A stretch of 34,807 nt of DNA from Paracoccaceae bacterium. GTDB lineage: Bacteria; Pseudomonadota; Alphaproteobacteria; Rhodobacterales; Rhodobacteraceae. Below are positions 2,129 through 13,504 of this stretch, one piece after another. Where the stretch lies: positions 1-34,807 of the forward strand of contig JAFGWK010000048.1 of the NCBI GenBank assembly GCA_016937195.1, given 5' to 3'. Made by a program: the position numbers and the translations under genes. The notes below the pieces were generated by a model. The model ran no database searches. It saw nothing but the letters and a program-made list of their open reading frames with translations, and had not been told where the DNA came from. Each line of letters opens with the position of its first letter. Position 1 is the stretch's first letter.

Positions 2129-2156
2129 AGCGCGCGCAAAAATATTTGCGCGCGCT
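2129..2156 (-). terminator. Rho-independent terminator of the polysaccharide operon
   Basis: AGCGCGCGCAAA-aata-TTTGCGCGCGCT perfect 12-bp stem; on the minus strand followed by TATTTTTTC; about 57 bp past the stop of the last gene. Confidence 0.9.
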
Positions 2157-2213: not shown

Positions 2214-3122
2214 TTATTGCAAGACCTGATTCTTGATGCGCCAATCGGGTGTGCCAAAGCCCTCGGGCCAAGGATAAACCTCGTTCTGGTTGAAGTAGAC
2301 CACGCCGACCAGATTGGGGTAGGCGGGCTTCTCGACCCGCACGCTTTCTTTCCACAAATCGATATAGCTCTGATCGCCGACATAGCCGAGTTCGGCCACC
2401 ACGACAGGCTTGCCGAAAGCGGCCGCGCGTTTATAGCGGGGGGCAAAAATGTCGTCAAAGCTGCGATCTGCGCCATATTTCGCGCGATCCCACGCTTGCA
2501 GTCCGAACACCGACAGCCCGACCAGATCGACGAAATCATCGCCGGGGTAATATTGCGCCATGTCTTCATCGCCCAGCGGCGACCACATCAAGGTGATCTT
2601 GGGTGCGGATTGTTTGCAGATCCCGGTCATGCGCCGATAGGCTGATATGTAATCTTCGGGCGACCAACCTGCCCAAATGAATTGCCCGCTCGCATCATCC
2701 ATTTCATGGGCAAAGCGCAAGGTGACCGGGCTTTGCAAGCCCCCCAGCACCTCGCAAACGGCGGTCATGTTGGCATCATATTCGCCCCGCGCGATACCGC
2801 GGCGCAGATATTGCGCGGTGTTGCGTTCCGAACGTGACCATGTCCAGGGTTCAAGCGTGACCAGCAGCGCGCGGCCGCGCTCTTTGGCATAGGCATCAGC
2901 ATCATTGAGCGAGGGCAGGTAGACATCCTCCCAAGGCAGAAACAGATGCTCGATTACGACAGGCGTTTTCTCTGAGAAATCACCATCGGGGTCATACACG
3001 CCAAAAGGCAGGGTGCCCGGAGGGACCTCGACAGGCCCCGCCTGTGCTGCGAGTGCCGTAAGCGAAACCGCCAGCGCGCCAAGCGTTGTGCGCCATTTTG
3101 AAATTCCATATTTCTTTAGCAT
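2214..3122 (-). CDS. Secreted GH26-like glycoside hydrolase (beta-mannanase / beta-1,3-xylanase-type fold)
   Basis: 302 aa; signal peptide; LRFAHEMD (putative acid/base Glu) and VVVAELGYVG (putative nucleophile Glu) in GH26-like context; RBS GGAGGGG before ATG. Confidence 0.75.
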   Translation of the reverse strand: MLKKYGISKWRTTLGALAVSLTALAAQAGPVEVPPGTLPFGVYDPDGDFSEKTPVVIEHLFLPWEDVYLPSLNDADAYAKERGRALLVTLEPWTWSRSERNTAQYLRRGIARGEYDANMTAVCEVLGGLQSPVTLRFAHEMDDASGQFIWAGWSPEDYISAYRRMTGICKQSAPKITLMWSPLGDEDMAQYYPGDDFVDLVGLSVFGLQAWDRAKYGADRSFDDIFAPRYKRAAAFGKPVVVAELGYVGDQSYIDLWKESVRVEKPAYPNLVGVVYFNQNEVYPWPEGFGTPDWRIKNQVLQ

Positions 3123-3153
3123 TTACGTCCCCTCCAAGTCTGCCTCAGGCCAA

Positions 3154-4968
3154 TCAGTGTGTTGACCAGCCCGGAGATATTCGAAACTGCGCCTTGCCCG
3201 GCGCGCCCATGCCCGCACCCGAGGCGACATATTGCACCCGCGTGAGATGGACGGGTTCCAGCCCGATCAGTAGCGCATGCAGGCTTTCTTCGCCCCGCGC
3301 CACCAGCGCACCCAGCGTCATCGCGCCAATCACCGCAAGCGTGGCAAATTGCGCCGCCAGATCGCGGCTGGCCCAATTGGGGCGCGCATGGCGCAATGGC
3401 TCGGCGATGGCCAAGGCCAGCAGCGTCGCGAAAACCGCCGCATTGAGCAGCGAGAGCAGGTAAAACCCGCGCGCCTCGCCTGCATCTGCCACCATCAGCA
3501 CCGGCAGCAGCGCGCCAATCGCCAAAGCAGCATACACCATCAGCACCTTTCGCGGCAGCTGTGTGTGCGCGGCCTCGCCCTTGGGCGTGATGCGGAAGTC
3601 GACGAAATGGCCGCTCAGGCGGTCGCGCATCGCCATCACGCAGCCCCAAAGCACCCAAGGCCATTGCATCATCGGAAACAGTATCCGCTCCCATCCCAGC
3701 ACCTTCGCATCCATAGGGCGCAGCAATCCATCGGCGCGCAAACGATAGGCGAAGGCCAGCAGCACCAGCCCGGCAGGCAGCGCATGGGCGAGAAATTCAG
3801 GAAAAGTTACATCGGCAAAGCGGGTGCCAAGGCTGAGCGCTGCAATCGGCATCAGATACATGCAGCCCATCACCAGCGCAAAGATCAAATACCAGCTCTG
3901 GCAGAGCAGGAACAACACGCGCAAGCGCAGCGGCAAGGTGCGCAAGTAGCGCCGGGTATGAGCCAGTAGCAGCGTCATCAGAGAGCGTGACCACTGAAAT
4001 TCCTGTGTCACCAGATCGGGCAGGCTGGCAGGACCATCGCCAATCGCGATTGCATCAATCGCATGCACCCCGCGCCAGCCCGTAGCCGCGATCAGCATCG
4101 TGGTCGAGTGATCCTCGGCCAGATCGGGGCCAAGCCCGCCCGCCTGTTTCAGCGCCCGCGTGCGTACAGCGTAATGCGAGCCGATACACATCGGCGTCAG
4201 CACGCCGCTATAGCCCGCCTGCAACATGCCGTGAAAGGCGGCCTCGGAATGCAGCCGCGCACGTGCCGCCCAACTGGATTTGGCATTGGCCGCACAGATT
4301 GAGGGCGCGCTGACATAGCCCACCGTGTCGTCGCTGAACGGACGCAGCATTTCGCGCAAATACCCCGGTTGAGGCACGTGATCGGCATCAAGCTGGCTGA
4401 CGATGTCGTAGTCGCGATAGCCCCAGTGGTCGTAGAAATAGGCGAGGTTACCTTCTTTGCAGCGGGTGCGGCGTGGCCATGTCGGGCGATGATACTCGGC
4501 CACGTTTTGACGGCTGGAAATGCGCACACCGTTTGCTTTGCACCACGCGCGGGTGGCGGCGTCGGGGGCCTCATCGGCCAGCCATGTGTCATGGGGATAA
4601 TCCTGCGCCAGCATCGCCTCAAGCGTCGGGCGCAGGACAGAAAACGGCTCAGACGGGGTTTTTGTCACGATCATTGCGACGCGCCAGCGCGCGGGGGCTG
4701 GATCGGGCGAGGACGGGCGGCGCGCGTTCAGTGCAATCGTCAGGAAATATGCCTGCATCGCGCTGAGCCAGATCAGCGCAAGCGTGATCAGTACAAACCG
4801 GCCCCAGCCGATCACATGCAACGGATCAAGCCACCAAAGCCAGAACCACGCCGCAGCCACAACCCACGCGCCAAAAAGCGCGCGATAGCGCAACGCCTGG
4901 GTCGAACTGAGCAGCGGGACGAGATGGCCTTGCGCTTCGGCCGTGCGCGTTTCGCGCCGGATCAGCAT
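3154..4968 (-). CDS. Membrane glycosyltransferase family 2, cellulose-synthase-like
   Basis: Start refined to ATG at 4968, overlapping the upstream stop (ATGCTGA). Multiple TM segments; LDADHVP (DxD-type), LAEDHST (TED-like), QEFQWSRS (QxxRW-position motif). Confidence 0.88.
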   Translation of the reverse strand: MLIRRETRTAEAQGHLVPLLSSTQALRYRALFGAWVVAAAWFWLWWLDPLHVIGWGRFVLITLALIWLSAMQAYFLTIALNARRPSSPDPAPARWRVAMIVTKTPSEPFSVLRPTLEAMLAQDYPHDTWLADEAPDAATRAWCKANGVRISSRQNVAEYHRPTWPRRTRCKEGNLAYFYDHWGYRDYDIVSQLDADHVPQPGYLREMLRPFSDDTVGYVSAPSICAANAKSSWAARARLHSEAAFHGMLQAGYSGVLTPMCIGSHYAVRTRALKQAGGLGPDLAEDHSTTMLIAATGWRGVHAIDAIAIGDGPASLPDLVTQEFQWSRSLMTLLLAHTRRYLRTLPLRLRVLFLLCQSWYLIFALVMGCMYLMPIAALSLGTRFADVTFPEFLAHALPAGLVLLAFAYRLRADGLLRPMDAKVLGWERILFPMMQWPWVLWGCVMAMRDRLSGHFVDFRITPKGEAAHTQLPRKVLMVYAALAIGALLPVLMVADAGEARGFYLLSLLNAAVFATLLALAIAEPLRHARPNWASRDLAAQFATLAVIGAMTLGALVARGEESLHALLIGLEPVHLTRVQYVASGAGMGAPGKAQFRISPGWSTH

Positions 4969-5978
4969 GAGGCCATCCCACACGTGGTTTGCGCACTCAG
5001 CCCAAACCACGGCGCCGCATGGGCAATCATCTGGTCCAGTTCGCCATAGGCGGGCGCAAATCCGATCAGGTTGGCGGCACGGGTGGGATCGGCGGTCAGC
5101 TCGGGTGGGTCGCCCGCGCGCCGGGGCCCCAATCGCAGCGGCACACCGCGCCCCGTGACCCTCTCAACCGCAGCGACCACGTCAAAGATCGAAGCGCCCC
5201 GACCCGTGCCCAAATTCAGCGCGACATTGGCGCCGCCATTATCAAGGTGATCGAGCGCACAAAGATGGGCACGCGCAAGATCGCTGACATGGATGTAATC
5301 GCGAATGCAGGTGCCATCGGGTGTCGCGTAATCGCTACCAAAGACCTGAAGCGGCGGGCCTAGACCGGCCGCCGCCATCAGCGCGAGCGGGATCAGATGG
5401 GTTTCGGGCGCGTGACGCTCTCCCAGATCGCCTTCTGGATCAGCGCCCGCCGCATTGAAATAGCGCAACGCGGCATAGCGCAGCCCATGGGCTGTCGCGG
5501 CATCGCGCAACATCCATTCCCCGATCAGTTTCGTGCGCCCATACGGGTTGATCGGGTTTTGCGCACTGTCTTCGGTGATCGGCAGATCGGCGGGCGTGCC
5601 ATAGGTTGCGCAGCTTGACGAAAACAAGATCCGTTCGCAGCCAACTTCTAGCATGGCATTCAAAAGCGCCCGCATGCCGTTCACATTCACATCGTAATAT
5701 CCCAGCGGATCACGCACGCTTTCCCCGACATAGGCGAGGGCGGCAAAATGGATCACCGCATCAATGCGCTCTTCGCGCAGCGTTTGCGCCAGACGATCAG
5801 AGTCGCGGATGTCGCCAGCAATCAGTGGCCCCCAGCGCACCGCGTCGGCATGCCCGCGCGAGAGGTTGTCATAGGCAATCGGCAGCCGCCCAGCCTGGGC
5901 CAGCGCCTTGCAGCAATGCGAGCCGATGTAGCCCGCACCGCCGGTGACCAGCACCCGCTCTGCGCGCCACATACTCAT
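4962..5978 (-). CDS. galE: UDP-glucose 4-epimerase
   Basis: [72 protein letters not shown]. Confidence 0.93.
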
Positions 5979-7015
5979 GCGAAGGCGGCTTCCTGCGCCG
6001 CTGGCTGGCCCAAAAGCTGGGATTGGAAATAGGCGATGGTGGGTACCAGACCGGTGCGCAGATCGACCTTGGGCTGCCAGTTCAGCAGCGTGCGGGCGCG
6101 GGTGATATCGGGGCGGCGCTGGCGCGGATCATCCACTGGTAAATCGCAATGAATCAGCTTTGATCGCGACCCGGTCATCTCACAGACCACCTGCGCGATT
6201 TGCGCCACCGAGAACTCTACCGGATTGCCCAGATTAACCGGGGCAGGGCCGATATCGTTGTTTTCCATCAACGCCTGCATGCCATCCAGCAAGTCATCGA
6301 CATAACACAGTGATCGCGTTTGCAGCCCTGCGCCATACAGCGTGATCGGCACGCCTTGCAGCGCTTGCATCACGAAATTAGAGACCACGCGACCATCATT
6401 CGGGTCCATGCGCGGCCCGTAGGTGTTGAAGATTCGCATGATGCGAATATCGGTGCCATGGGCGTGGAAATGGTCATGAAACAGGGTTTCGGCCGCGCGT
6501 TTTCCTTCGTCATAGCAGGCGCGCGGGCCAAACGTGTTGACCTGTCCGCGATAGCTTTCGGGTTGAGGCGATATCTCGGGATCGCCATAGACTTCCGAGG
6601 TCGAGGCCTGCAAAATCCGCGCGCCCTTGCGACGCGCCAACTCTAGCACATTCATCGCCCCGATCACCGAGGTTTGGAACGTATGGATCGGGTCGAGCTG
6701 GTATTTCGGCGGCGACGCCGGGCAGGCAAGGTTGTAAATTCGCTCAAGGCGACCATCGATGTCAAAGGGCACGATCACGTCATGTTTCACAAAGGCGAAA
6801 TTGGGATGCGTGCGCAGATGGGCGATGTTTTCAAGGCGCCCCGTGAGCAGGTTATCAAGGCATATGACCCGATGCCCAGCCGCCAAAAGCCGCTCGCAAA
6901 GGTTGGACCCCAAGAACCCGGCGCCCCCGGTAATCAGGATGCGGTGGTGCTTAGAACGGTCCTGTTTAGAGCGCACCGGAAAATACGGCGCAAAGATACG
7001 CGGAACGTCAGTCAT
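5975..7015 (-). CDS. UDP-glucuronate decarboxylase (UDP-xylose synthase) family SDR
   Basis: [67 protein letters not shown]. Start refined to ATG 7015 with GGAGGGAGG upstream; 4-nt ATGA overlap with galE. Confidence 0.92.
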
Positions 7016-7180
7016 CGTCCTCCCTCCCCACTGGAAGAACAGCACGTCTCAGTCACGCTCATTGACCACGAGCGCGCCCGACCCCGGTGCACAAATTGCC
7101 GGGGAGTGCCTAGTTATGTGCTTGTTCTTCAAGCCTAAGCGCAAGGTTAGGGAGGGCTCAAGAAAATGTGAGCGGGGCGA

Positions 7181-7236
7181 TCAAATTCTGACCGCTTGGT
7201 CTACATAACCTTAATCAAATGTTAACCGCTTGATCT
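7181..7236. repeat. Two direct repeats TCAAATnnnnACCGCTTGrTCT, 34-bp periodicity
   Basis: 7181-7202 TCAAATTCTGACCGCTTGGTCT and 7215-7236 TCAAATGTTAACCGCTTGATCT; 18/22 identical; upstream of the polysaccharide operon. Confidence 0.75.
7211..7226. promoter_or_regulatory. Candidate CtrA-binding box TTAA-N7-TTAAC
   Basis: TTAATCAAATGTTAAC is an exact match to the alphaproteobacterial full CtrA consensus, about 200 bp upstream of the uxs-like start. Confidence 0.6.
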
Positions 7237-7321
7237 GCTTGAATAGCCTGCCTGGCTAGCGGCTCGCCTAAAAAATGTGCAAAAAAGGCGGCGAATCGGG
7301 GGCATCTTGATGTCTTTGGGC

Positions 7322-8137
7322 TTACAGGAACGCCTTGCGCAGCATGTTCAGCGCCACCAGCATCAGGAAGACGGCAAAGACCCGCTTGAGCTTTTTCGGG
7401 TCCAGCTTATGGGCCAGCGTTGCACCAATCGGGGCTGTGATCATGGTCATTGCGATCACGATCAGGAAGGCGGGAATGTTGATTGCCCCGATGGAGCCCC
7501 AAGGCGCATCCGGCACCGGCGTTAGCAGAAATCCAATGGCCGAGGGCAGGGCGATGGTCACGCCAAACCCCGCCGAGGTCGCCACAGCGCGGTGAATCGG
7601 GACGCCGTGTAACGTCTGCATCGGCGTGCCAATCGAGCCGCCGCCAATCCCCAGCAGCACCGAGAGAAACCCCATCAGCGGCCCGAACCATGCCCGAAAA
7701 AGCCCTCCCGGCAGCCCGTCGGAAATCCGCCAACTCGATTTGCCAAACATCATATAGCTGGCGATCACCATCACCATCACCGCAAAGATGATCTGCATCG
7801 TGCTTGTGCTCAGTTGATGCACCACCAGCACCCCGATCACCGCGCCAATCGCAATTGGCACCACCCATTGGCGCAAGATCTGCCAATCGACCGCTCCGCG
7901 TTTGTTATGCGCCATCACCGAGCGGATCGAAGTCACGATAATTGTCGCCAGCGAGGTCGCCACGCAGACCTGCATCAGGTCATCCGAGCCATAGCCCAGC
8001 CCGCTGAACAGATAGAAAAACGCTGGCACCAGAACGATGCCGCCGCCTACACCCAGCAACCCGGCCAAAACGCCCGCAAACGCCCCCACTGCCATCAGAA
8101 TTGCGACAAGCGGCAGCAGCGTGGACAGATCGGGCAT
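7322..8137 (-). CDS. Sulfite exporter TauE/SafE (TSUP) family permease
   Basis: 271 aa polytopic; GVLAGLLGVGGGIVLVPAF and GFLSVLLGIGGGSIGTPMQTLHGVPIHRAVATSA repeated glycine-rich motifs. Confidence 0.92.
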   Translation of the reverse strand: MPDLSTLLPLVAILMAVGAFAGVLAGLLGVGGGIVLVPAFFYLFSGLGYGSDDLMQVCVATSLATIIVTSIRSVMAHNKRGAVDWQILRQWVVPIAIGAVIGVLVVHQLSTSTMQIIFAVMVMVIASYMMFGKSSWRISDGLPGGLFRAWFGPLMGFLSVLLGIGGGSIGTPMQTLHGVPIHRAVATSAGFGVTIALPSAIGFLLTPVPDAPWGSIGAINIPAFLIVIAMTMITAPIGATLAHKLDPKKLKRVFAVFLMLVALNMLRKAFL

Positions 8138-9470: not shown

Positions 9471-9603
9471 TCTGCGCGTGTCGCGATCGGGGGCAAACCC
9501 GACGCAAAAACGGATAACGCTGCGCGTCAGATTAATATTCTCGGGTGACACATCGGCAGCAAAGCTGCCCGAATGCCCGATCAACAACTGGGGGAAGACC
9601 AAT

Positions 9604-10710
9604 ATGACGTCCAAATTCCAACTTGCCCTGAGCGCAAGCGTGGTGGCTCTGGCGACCAGCGCAAGCCTCGCTTCGGCTGATACGCTTGGTGATCTTTACG
9701 CTGCTGCTAAAGAAGAAGGCAGCCTGACGACGATCGCGCTGCCCCATTCGTGGTGCAATTACGCGGGCGTGATTGATGGCTTCAAAGCCAAATATCCCGG
9801 CATCACCGTGAACGAGCTGAACCCCGATGCGGGCTCTGCTGACGAAGTTCAGGCGATCCGCGCCAACAAAGACAACAAAGGCCCGCAAGCGCCCGACGTT
9901 ATCGATGTGGGTCTGTCCTTCGGGCCTGCTGCCAAGGAAGAGGGGCTGATCCAGCCCTATAAAGTGTCGACCTGGGACACGATCCCCGACAGCGCCAAAG
10001 ATGCTGACGGTTACTGGTATGGCGATTATTATGGCGTGCTGTCCTTTGCGGTGAACAAGGATCTCGTGGATAACGTCCCGCAGGACTGGGCCGATCTGCT
10101 CAAGCCCGAATATGCGAATTCGGTTGCGCTGGCAGGTGATCCGCGCGCCTCGAACCAAGCTATTCTGGCCGTTCTGGCCGCAGGCGTTGCCAATGGTGGC
10201 GCTGCGGGCAAAGCTTCGGGCGAAGCAGGTCTGAAATACTTTGCCGAGATGAACAAGAACGGCAATTTCGTGCCCGTCATCGGCAAAACCGGGACGCTGG
10301 CCCAAGGCGCAACCCCGATCGTAATCGAGTGGGATTACAACGCGCTGGCCGGGCGTGACACGCTCAAGGGCAATCCGCCCGTGGACGTGGTCGTGCCGCA
10401 ATCGGGTGTGGTCGCCGGTGTTTATGTGCAGGCGATTTCGGCCTATGCGCCCCATCCCAATGCTGCGAAACTGTGGATGGAGTATCTCTATTCCGACGAG
10501 GGGCAGCTTGGCTGGCTCAAGGGCTATTGCCACCCGATCCGGTTCAACGATCTGGCCGAAAAAGGTAAGGTTCCTCAAGAGATGCTGGACGCGATGCCCC
10601 CCGCTGAGGGCTATGCCAAGGCGATCTTCCCGACTCTTGATGAACAGGCTGCCAACAAAGAGGTCGTGACCTCCGGTTGGGATAGCGTCGTCGGTTCCAA
10701 CGTTCAGTAA
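9604..10710 (+). CDS. ABC transporter extracellular solute-binding protein (family 1; Fe3+/polyamine-type)
   Basis: Start refined to ATG 9604 (GGGGGAAG upstream); signal peptide MTSKFQLALSASVVALATSASLASA; followed by two permeases and an ATPase. Confidence 0.9.
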   Translation: MTSKFQLALSASVVALATSASLASADTLGDLYAAAKEEGSLTTIALPHSWCNYAGVIDGFKAKYPGITVNELNPDAGSADEVQAIRANKDNKGPQAPDVIDVGLSFGPAAKEEGLIQPYKVSTWDTIPDSAKDADGYWYGDYYGVLSFAVNKDLVDNVPQDWADLLKPEYANSVALAGDPRASNQAILAVLAAGVANGGAAGKASGEAGLKYFAEMNKNGNFVPVIGKTGTLAQGATPIVIEWDYNALAGRDTLKGNPPVDVVVPQSGVVAGVYVQAISAYAPHPNAAKLWMEYLYSDEGQLGWLKGYCHPIRFNDLAEKGKVPQEMLDAMPPAEGYAKAIFPTLDEQAANKEVVTSGWDSVVGSNVQ

Positions 10711-10726
10711 CGTCTTGAACGCATTA

Positions 10727-10758
10727 ACCCGCCCCGTGCCATCTGGCGCGGGGCGGGT
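10727..10758 (+). repeat. GC-rich stem-loop between SBP and permease genes
   Basis: ACCCGCCCCGTGCCA-tc-TGGCGCGGGGCGGGT, 15-bp stem with a single G-U; no U-tract. Confidence 0.8.
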
Positions 10759-10784
10759 CACTTTGATTCGAAAGATATCCCAAT

Positions 10785-11654
10785 ATGGCTGACATCACTG
10801 TCCCCCGACGCCGGTTACCGCTTACGTGGGTCGGAATGATGCCGTTCGCGATCTTTGCTGCGCTGTTCCTGATCTTGCCCACAATGTATATCGTGATCGG
10901 TGCCTTCCGATCTGCCGATGGCGGTTTCACCTTTGCCAATCTTGTGAACCTGTTTCAGCCCTCGATCCTCGCGTCCTATTGGATTTCCATCAAGATCAGT
11001 CTCGCGACAGCGGTGTTTGGCTGTTTGATCGGTTTTGGCATGGCCGCTGCCGTCACGCTTGGCGGTCTGCCGAACTGGCTGCGCGGACCGATCATGACTT
11101 TTTCGGGGGTGGCCTCGAACTTTGCTGGCGTGCCGCTGGCTTTTGCGTTTCTCGCGACGCTGGGTCGGCTGGGGCTAGTGACGGTCGTCCTCAAGCAATG
11201 GTTCGGCTTTAATATATATGCCCACGGCTTCAATCTGCTGAGCTTTTTCGGGCTGACGATTACCTATCTGTTCTTCCAGATCCCGTTGATGATCCTGATC
11301 ATCACGCCCGCGCTGGACGGGCTCAAGCGCGAGTGGAAAGAGGCCGCCTCGATCCTTGGGGCAAGCGGGTTTCAATACTGGCGCATCGTCGCGCTGCCGA
11401 TTTTGTGGCCCTCGCTGCTGGGCACGCTGGCGCTGCTGTTTGCCAATAGTTTCGGGGCCGTTGCCACGGCTTACGCGCTGACGGGATCATCACTGTCGAT
11501 TGTGCCGATCATGCTGTATGCGCAGATCCGCGGCGACGTGCTGCAAGACCCCCATCTTGGTTATGCTTTGGCCTTCGGTATGATCGTCATCACGGGGATC
11601 GCGAATTTCGTCTATGTCTGGCTGCGGGTCCGGTCTGAGAGGTGGGTAAAATGA
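10785..11654 (+). CDS. ABC transporter permease (PotB/FbpB-like)
   Basis: 289 aa polytopic; EAA-type loop EWKEAASILGASGFQYWRIVALPILWP. Confidence 0.92.
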   Translation: MADITVPRRRLPLTWVGMMPFAIFAALFLILPTMYIVIGAFRSADGGFTFANLVNLFQPSILASYWISIKISLATAVFGCLIGFGMAAAVTLGGLPNWLRGPIMTFSGVASNFAGVPLAFAFLATLGRLGLVTVVLKQWFGFNIYAHGFNLLSFFGLTITYLFFQIPLMILIITPALDGLKREWKEAASILGASGFQYWRIVALPILWPSLLGTLALLFANSFGAVATAYALTGSSLSIVPIMLYAQIRGDVLQDPHLGYALAFGMIVITGIANFVYVWLRVRSERWVK

Positions 11655-12439
11655 GGGTGCAACGGTTCTGGTCCATCATCGCGCTGATCTTTGGTTTCAC
11701 CTATTTCGCGCTGCCCTTGATTGGCACGTTGGAGTTTTCGCTACGCGCGCGGCGCGGGGTTTACTCGCTGGATGCCTATCGCTCGGTGCTCAGCGATCCG
11801 CAATTCCGCGAGACGTTCAGCTATTCGATCGTGATGGCAATCTTTACCATCTTCGTTGGCGCGCTGATCGTCGTGCCGACGGCTTACTGGGTGCGCCTCA
11901 AACTGCCGCGTCTGCGTCCGGTGGTTGAATTCATTACCCTGTTGCCGCTGGTGATCCCGCCAATCGTGATCGTTTTCGGTTATATCCGGCTTTACAATAC
12001 CTCGTCGTTTCTGCCGATGACCGGGTCGGTGACGGGCACCAATATCCTTTTGATGCTGGGCTACACGACGCTGTCGCTGCCCTACATGTATCGCGCGGTG
12101 GACACCGGACTGCGCACGCTGGACGTGGCCACGCTGACCGAAGCAGCCCAAAGCCTTGGCGCAGGGTGGACCACGATCATTGCGCGGTTAATCCTGCCCA
12201 ACGTACTGGTTGCGGTGCTGTCAGGGGCATTCATCACCTTCGCCATCGTCATCGGCGAATTCGTTCTCGCCTCGCTGCTCAACCGGCCTGCCTTTGGTCC
12301 CTATATGCAGCTTGTCGGTGCCAACAAGGCCTATGAGCCTGCGGCGCTGGCGGTGATTGCCTTCTCTATCACTTGGATCTGCATGGGGCTGATCCAGCTT
12401 GTCACCCGATTTTCGAAACATACGAAAGCACAACGGTAA
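11642..12439 (+). CDS. ABC transporter permease (PotC-like)
   Basis: Polytopic; EAA loop TLTEAAQSLGAGWTTIIARLILPNV; overlaps previous ORF. An internal ATG at 11651 (MRVQRFW) is the more likely start. Confidence 0.9.
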   Translation: MGKMRVQRFWSIIALIFGFTYFALPLIGTLEFSLRARRGVYSLDAYRSVLSDPQFRETFSYSIVMAIFTIFVGALIVVPTAYWVRLKLPRLRPVVEFITLLPLVIPPIVIVFGYIRLYNTSSFLPMTGSVTGTNILLMLGYTTLSLPYMYRAVDTGLRTLDVATLTEAAQSLGAGWTTIIARLILPNVLVAVLSGAFITFAIVIGEFVLASLLNRPAFGPYMQLVGANKAYEPAALAVIAFSITWICMGLIQLVTRFSKHTKAQR

Positions 12440-12442
12440 CTC

Positions 12443-13504
12443 ATGGCCTTTCTCAACATTGAGCATCTTGAAAAATTCTTCGGCACCAATCGTGTGGTGA
12501 AGGATTTCAACCTGGCCATCGAACAGGGGGAGTTCGTCTCGCTTCTGGGGCCATCTGGGTGCGGTAAGACAACCGTGCTGCGCATGGTCGCGGGGTTCGA
12601 GACGACCTCGTCCGGGGCGATCACGATTGACGGGCAGGATGTCACGCATCTGCGCCCGAACCAGCGCAACATTGGCATGGTGTTCCAGTCCTATGCGCTG
12701 TTTCCCAACCTGACCGTGGCGCAGAATGTCGGCTTTGGCATGCGCGTGGCGGGGCACCCGAAATCTGAAATCAAGGCGCGCGTGGATGAAATGCTGCGCT
12801 TGATCGGCCTGCCCAAGTTAGGCAATCGCTATCCGTTCCAGCTTTCGGGCGGGCAGCAACAGCGTGTCGCGCTGGCCCGCGCGCTTGCGGTGCAGCCGCG
12901 CGTTCTATTGCTGGATGAACCGCTCTCGGCACTGGACGCCAAGATCCGGGTGTCATTGCGCGAAGAAATTCGTGAAATTCAGCGCGAGCTGGGCATCACC
13001 ACGATCTTCGTCACCCACGATCAGGAAGAAGCACTGTCGATGTCGGATCGCGTGGTGGTGATGAATGGCGGTGTGGCCGAACAGACCGGGGCGCCGTTTG
13101 AAATCTACAACCACCCCACGACCCGGTTTGTGGCGCAATTCGTCGGCACGCTGAACACGCTGTCGGCCACCGTCATTGACGCCAAGACGGGCCAGGTGGC
13201 CGTGGGCGAGACGCCGATTGCGCTTAACCGTCCGCTTCCCGGTGCAGAGGTAGGGGGCGCTATTAATCTCGCGCTGCGCCCTGAGGTCGTCTCGCTCGGT
13301 CGCAAGGAAGGGCGCGACACGATTCTTGCCGGGCGCCTTGCCGAGGTGCATTTCCTTGGCTCGACGATCCGTATGCGTGTCGATGTTGGTGGCACGCTGA
13401 TATCGTTGGATACGTTCAACACCCCCGACACCCCGCCGCCGCGGATTGGTGAGGCCGTGGAGTTGAGTCTGGCCGAGCGTGATCTGCTGGTTCTAACAGA
13501 TTAA
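12443..13504 (+). CDS. ABC transporter ATP-binding protein (PotA/FbpC-like)
   Basis: Walker A GPSGCGKTT, signature LSGGQQQRVALARAL, Walker B VLLLDEPLSALD, H-loop FVTHDQEEAL, C-terminal TOBE-like region. Confidence 0.96.
   Translation: MAFLNIEHLEKFFGTNRVVKDFNLAIEQGEFVSLLGPSGCGKTTVLRMVAGFETTSSGAITIDGQDVTHLRPNQRNIGMVFQSYALFPNLTVAQNVGFGMRVAGHPKSEIKARVDEMLRLIGLPKLGNRYPFQLSGGQQQRVALARALAVQPRVLLLDEPLSALDAKIRVSLREEIREIQRELGITTIFVTHDQEEALSMSDRVVVMNGGVAEQTGAPFEIYNHPTTRFVAQFVGTLNTLSATVIDAKTGQVAVGETPIALNRPLPGAEVGGAINLALRPEVVSLGRKEGRDTILAGRLAEVHFLGSTIRMRVDVGGTLISLDTFNTPDTPPPRIGEAVELSLAERDLLVLTD

Follow-up and report, generated by a model that had tools for sequence, protein, structure and literature searches.

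Organization of the locus

The window analysed herein, i.e., the whole 34,807-nucleotide stretch of DNA, belongs to a draft genome that is 91.7% complete, so that the gene absences reported below are provisional. The host is a marine bacterium and a close relative of Thioclava, being nearest to Thioclava indica (93% identity in the GT2 enzyme described below). On its minus strand the window carries four genes that form one operon, as a preliminary description of this DNA had proposed: uxs (5975..7015), encoding a UDP-glucuronate decarboxylase/UDP-xylose synthase of 346 residues; uxe (4962..5978), encoding a GalE-family epimerase of 338 residues; apsS (3154..4968), encoding a BcsA-like membrane GT2 enzyme of 604 residues; and apsE (2214..3122), encoding a GH26 hydrolase of 302 residues. 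Read from the sequence, the stop of uxs and the start of the epimerase gene share ATGA (5978-5975), and the stop of the epimerase gene and the start of the GT2 gene share ATGCTGA (4968-4962), an overlap that makes ATG 4968, and not GTG 5010, the probable GT2 start. The GT2 and GH26 genes are instead separated by a 31-nt gap (3153-3123) that holds a GGAGGGG ribosome-binding site. The translational coupling previously described for the whole operon thus applies to the first three genes, while the fourth is closely spaced.

Downstream of the GH26 gene, the operon is closed by a strong intrinsic terminator (2129..2156, minus strand), which had also been noted before and is real by prediction: a GC-rich hairpin of 12 bp (2156-2129) is followed by a T-rich tail, with a computed energy of −22.9 kcal/mol and z = −4.6. 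Upstream of uxs, the neighboring gene encodes a TauE-type transporter (7322-8137, minus strand) and lies 306 nt away; on the basis of this gap, 7016..7321 (minus strand) is presumed to hold the operon promoter.

Nucleotide-sugar enzymes

The supply of UDP-xylose by a UDP-GlcA decarboxylase, as first suggested, is borne out by full-length similarity to UXS enzymes, which was our test for a UDP-xylose synthase: the match of Uxs to human UXS1 (E = 1.6e-108) spans nearly the full length, and the enzyme is 59% identical to Uxs1 of Sinorhizobium meliloti. The epimerase had been called GalE-like, and at 408 bits it does score above the TIGR01179 GalE cut-off in a profile search. It is, however, not a plain GalE, a candidate assignment that we rejected on the basis of a tree rooted on S. 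meliloti ExoB (in which the long-branch rows L104 and L108 were placed with low certainty). There the window epimerase falls into one clade with S. meliloti Uxe, to which it is 59% identical, and with other operon epimerases (support 98/86), whereas a second full-length GalE of the host, on contig C63, groups apart from it with other canonical GalEs (support 100/100). The Uxe placement makes a supply of UDP-arabinose likelier than one of UDP-galactose alone, and the uxe product would thus probably be a UDP-xylose 4-epimerase that has UDP-glucose 4-epimerase activity besides. The genome contains one full-length NDP-sugar (UDP-sugar) dehydrogenase, on contig C255.

Correspondence to the APS operon of Sinorhizobium meliloti

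The arabinose-containing polysaccharide (APS) is an arabinose-rich biofilm polymer of S. meliloti that binds Congo red. In a 2019 paper the polymer is reportedly solely or mainly arabinose, and Uxe is said to act on UDP-xylose as well as on UDP-glucose; the title of that paper and that of one from 2011 are in accord with the enzyme claims. A tblastn search against plasmids placed a counterpart of the window GT2 on pSymB of S. meliloti (53% identity), where the gene order is AraC regulator, UDP-GlcA decarboxylase, GalE, glycosyltransferase, DUF995, GH26, and DUF995. Past the divergent AraC-type regulator, each gene corresponds in turn to the published APS operon, uxs1-uxe-apsS-apsH1-apsE-apsH2 (PMC7902896). 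The gene set and its order, as opposed to locus tags, were the basis on which the pSymB locus was equated with that operon. The window operon has homologous uxs, uxe, apsS, and apsE in the same order and on one strand, at 47–59% identity (47% for the GH26 enzyme against ApsE), and its epimerase is of the Uxe type and not a canonical GalE. The window GT2 also shares the motifs of ApsS, including QEFQW, and none of the DAD, ED, and QEFQW motifs varies among 36 aligned GT2 sequences. Since processive GT2 enzymes usually carry QxxRW, the variant QxxQW marks the ApsS family. As judged by sequence, the window operon is therefore the counterpart of the described APS system and not a new system, and such a match to a characterised polysaccharide system is what the preliminary description had named as refuting its proposal.

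Two components of the S. meliloti system set it apart from the window operon. The first is the pair of DUF995 proteins, ApsH1 and ApsH2: a search that recovers both in S. meliloti detected no such protein in the host genome, nor in four genomes of Thioclava. Two loci of rhizobial type (L045, L058) do have DUF995 genes beside the operon, and some roseobacter operons have weaker matches nearby, while most Rhodobacterales loci are devoid of them. The second is CuxR, through which c-di-GMP activates the APS operon (PMC9495663); no orthologue was found in the 80 related loci, none adjoins the window operon, and the best match in its own genome scores 21 bits. DUF995 proteins are not established as defining for APS, and CuxR is a regulator outside the biosynthetic set. 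Without ApsH1/H2 and CuxR, regulation may be unlike that in S. meliloti, and the product or its export may be different if ApsH1/H2 are essential there.

Distribution and conservation

The arrangement uxs-uxe-GT2-GH26 occurs on one strand in 71 of the 80 related loci, nearly all from Rhodobacterales, and this identical gene order rules out a chance arrangement. Among the exceptions, the epimerase gene is missing from the operon in six loci, the GH26 gene in L026 and both sugar genes in L062 (with a contig end at each of these two), and L081 has its uxs elsewhere in the genome. Two of the six genomes with an epimerase-less operon, those of T. pacifica and T. sediminum, have a Uxe-clade epimerase at another location, and two (L055, L066) have only a canonical-type GalE. 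UXS is found beside the synthase in 77 of the 80 loci, including those six, and wherever the flank is complete, no other set of genes has taken its place. It is thus the most strictly kept of the sugar genes, and its retention is the best sequence evidence for the involvement of a pentose.

An orthologue with more than 50% identity is present in roughly 15 genomes out of a sample of 150 drawn from genera of the family, the host genome included. These data place a pentose-polymer system known from rhizobia in Rhodobacterales as well, where it is scattered but widespread and many of its carriers are marine, with the four-gene core representing the parts common to both groups. In T. pacifica, a second uxs-uxe pair (L121:6498-8455) lies off the synthase locus, and the surrounding 17 kb has no GT2 match. 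In relatives, further genes are repeatedly found at distances of up to 10 kb from the operon, encoding a Sel1-repeat protein (18 loci, e.g., L043:3260-4699), a PF11790 glycosyl hydrolase (16 loci, e.g., L050:15144-15974), and a sulfatase-family membrane protein (8 loci, e.g., L079:5482-7854). These are possible accessory genes for export or processing, and none of the three clusters has a member from the window.

Proposed pathway and alternative products

We consider it about 85% probable that the operon represents the APS operon as it occurs in Rhodobacterales, because it matches gene by gene and in order, its epimerase belongs to the Uxe clade, the layout recurs across the related loci, UXS is retained, the genome has one full-length dehydrogenase, and the catalytic motifs of synthase and hydrolase are invariant. 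The likely product is then a polymer of pentose (arabinose) that ApsS synthesises and ApsE trims. In such a pathway, the single full-length dehydrogenase would convert UDP-glucose to UDP-GlcA, Uxs would convert UDP-glucuronate to UDP-xylose, and Uxe would interconvert UDP-xylose and UDP-arabinose, and probably UDP-glucose and UDP-galactose too. ApsS would polymerise the pentose and pass the chain across the inner membrane, and the secreted ApsE would cut or trim the polymer during export, much as BcsZ does for cellulose. We infer the sugar, the linkage, the transport, and a role in biofilms from S. meliloti. The pentose-containing polymer suggested in the preliminary description remains probable, although, if the APS chemistry carries over, an arabinose-rich chain is to be favored over a glucan-like one with some xylose. 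Our search of the literature found no polymer analysis for Rhodobacterales operons of the APS kind.

The same enzyme set could also make a pentose polymer unlike that of S. meliloti, for example a xylose-rich or a mixed xylose/galactose one. The six loci that keep UXS without an operon epimerase, two of them in genomes with only a canonical-type GalE, and the DUF995 proteins not found in the genome point in this direction; however, Uxe stays in the operon in the great majority of loci, T. pacifica and T. sediminum retain a Uxe-clade enzyme elsewhere, and ApsS shares over half of its residues and its motifs with the S. meliloti enzyme, which leaves such a product unlikely. A broader proposal, that Rhodobacterales operate a minimal four-gene APS pathway without ApsH1/H2 and CuxR, with a different pentose polymer and with other control such as CtrA, is doubtful.

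With regard to such control, a CtrA-like site of the form TTAA-N7-TTAAC (TTAATCAAATGTTAAC, 7211..7226, plus strand) lies about 196–211 nt upstream of the uxs start and is the sole occurrence of TTAA-N7-TTAA in the window (0.04 expected). The pattern is present in 7 of 80 operon upstream regions, against 0.3–0.4 expected, and is confined to few related genera; the operons preceded by it include those of T. indica, a few Celeribacter, Shimia, and one rhizobial-type locus. Across the genome there was no clear enrichment (14 occurrences vs. 11 for the reversed control), and we treat putative CtrA control of the operon as a weak lead. The genome also encodes GGDEF proteins.

Comparison with cellulose and mixed-linkage glucan systems

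The GT2 enzyme had been described as a cellulose-synthase-like processive enzyme, and it does resemble BcsA by sequence as well as in its predicted fold (pLDDT 84), for which a Foldseek search returned BcsA as the nearest solved structures. A processive-type GT2 with a transmembrane domain, together with a secreted glycanase, is also the combination seen in BcsA and BcsZ. One may hence propose that the locus makes a beta-glucan, either cellulose or of mixed linkage, and that UXS and the epimerase serve other glycans. Nevertheless, the GT2 reaches only 67.8 bits with the TIGR03030 CelA profile, far under the cut-off of 699.1, it has QxxQW in place of QxxRW, and a domain profile search found no PilZ domain, in agreement with the preliminary description. 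The operon also lacks BcsB and BcsC, and its hydrolase is a GH26 whereas BcsZ is a GH8. No further match to the window GT2 was found in the genome at E ≤ 0.001, and the genome thus has no detectable BcsA. The BgsA/BgsB system for mixed-linkage beta-glucan likewise employs a BcsA-related GT2 without PilZ in Alphaproteobacteria, but no membrane-fusion protein such as BgsB adjoins the window GT2, whose neighbors are Uxe and GH26; UXS is part of the same operon, and the nearest S. meliloti relative of the GT2 is ApsS. Given the low profile score, the missing partners, and the retention of UXS beside the synthase, we rejected both glucan readings, and a beta-glucan product is very improbable even with the resemblance of the hydrolase to a lichenase that is described below.

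The GH26 hydrolase

The hydrolase was correctly described as secreted and GH26-like: it passes the Pfam GH26 profile (28.6 bits, cut-off 20.2), has a signal peptide-like N-terminal segment, and carries the two catalytic glutamates of the family (E140 and E244), which are invariant in the alignment. Its structural model (pLDDT 87) is nearest to a solved lichenase, CtLic26A (endoglucanase H), with which both glutamates align at only about 22% overall identity. As lichenase is a glucan enzyme, this predicted fold counts against the APS reading, although the natural substrate of the window GH26 is presumably the operon's own polymer, unlike that of CtLic26A.

GH26 genes of Celeribacter have been listed as endo-beta-1,3-1,4-glucanase or beta-1,3-xylanase under biomass degradation (PMC8874975), in line with a catabolic unit that degrades algal or plant glucan or xylan for scavenging; such a unit is barely credible here, since in the 71 conserved loci the genes that precede GH26 encode a synthase and nucleotide-sugar enzymes, with no importers or sugar kinases among them, and the GH26 gene matches ApsE from a biosynthetic operon. 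The APS assignment instead suggests that Rhodobacterales GH26 genes now listed as biomass-degrading may belong to biosynthesis. The operon GH26 of Celeribacter sp. PS-C1 (L034) is probably the gene that PMC8874975 lists as beta-1,3-xylanase.

Other features of the window

Beyond the operon, positions 9478-13504 hold an ABC transporter operon with a solute-binding protein and an ATPase with a TOBE domain, between which lie two ORFs that appear permease-like from sequence. Positions 14198-34685 appear to form a phenylacetate degradation region, including a PaaX regulator, a thiolase, PaaA/PaaC-type proteins, a ferredoxin-type reductase, and a CoA ligase, as well as an aldehyde dehydrogenase, a branched-chain-type ABC transporter, and a hydroxyacyl-CoA dehydrogenase.
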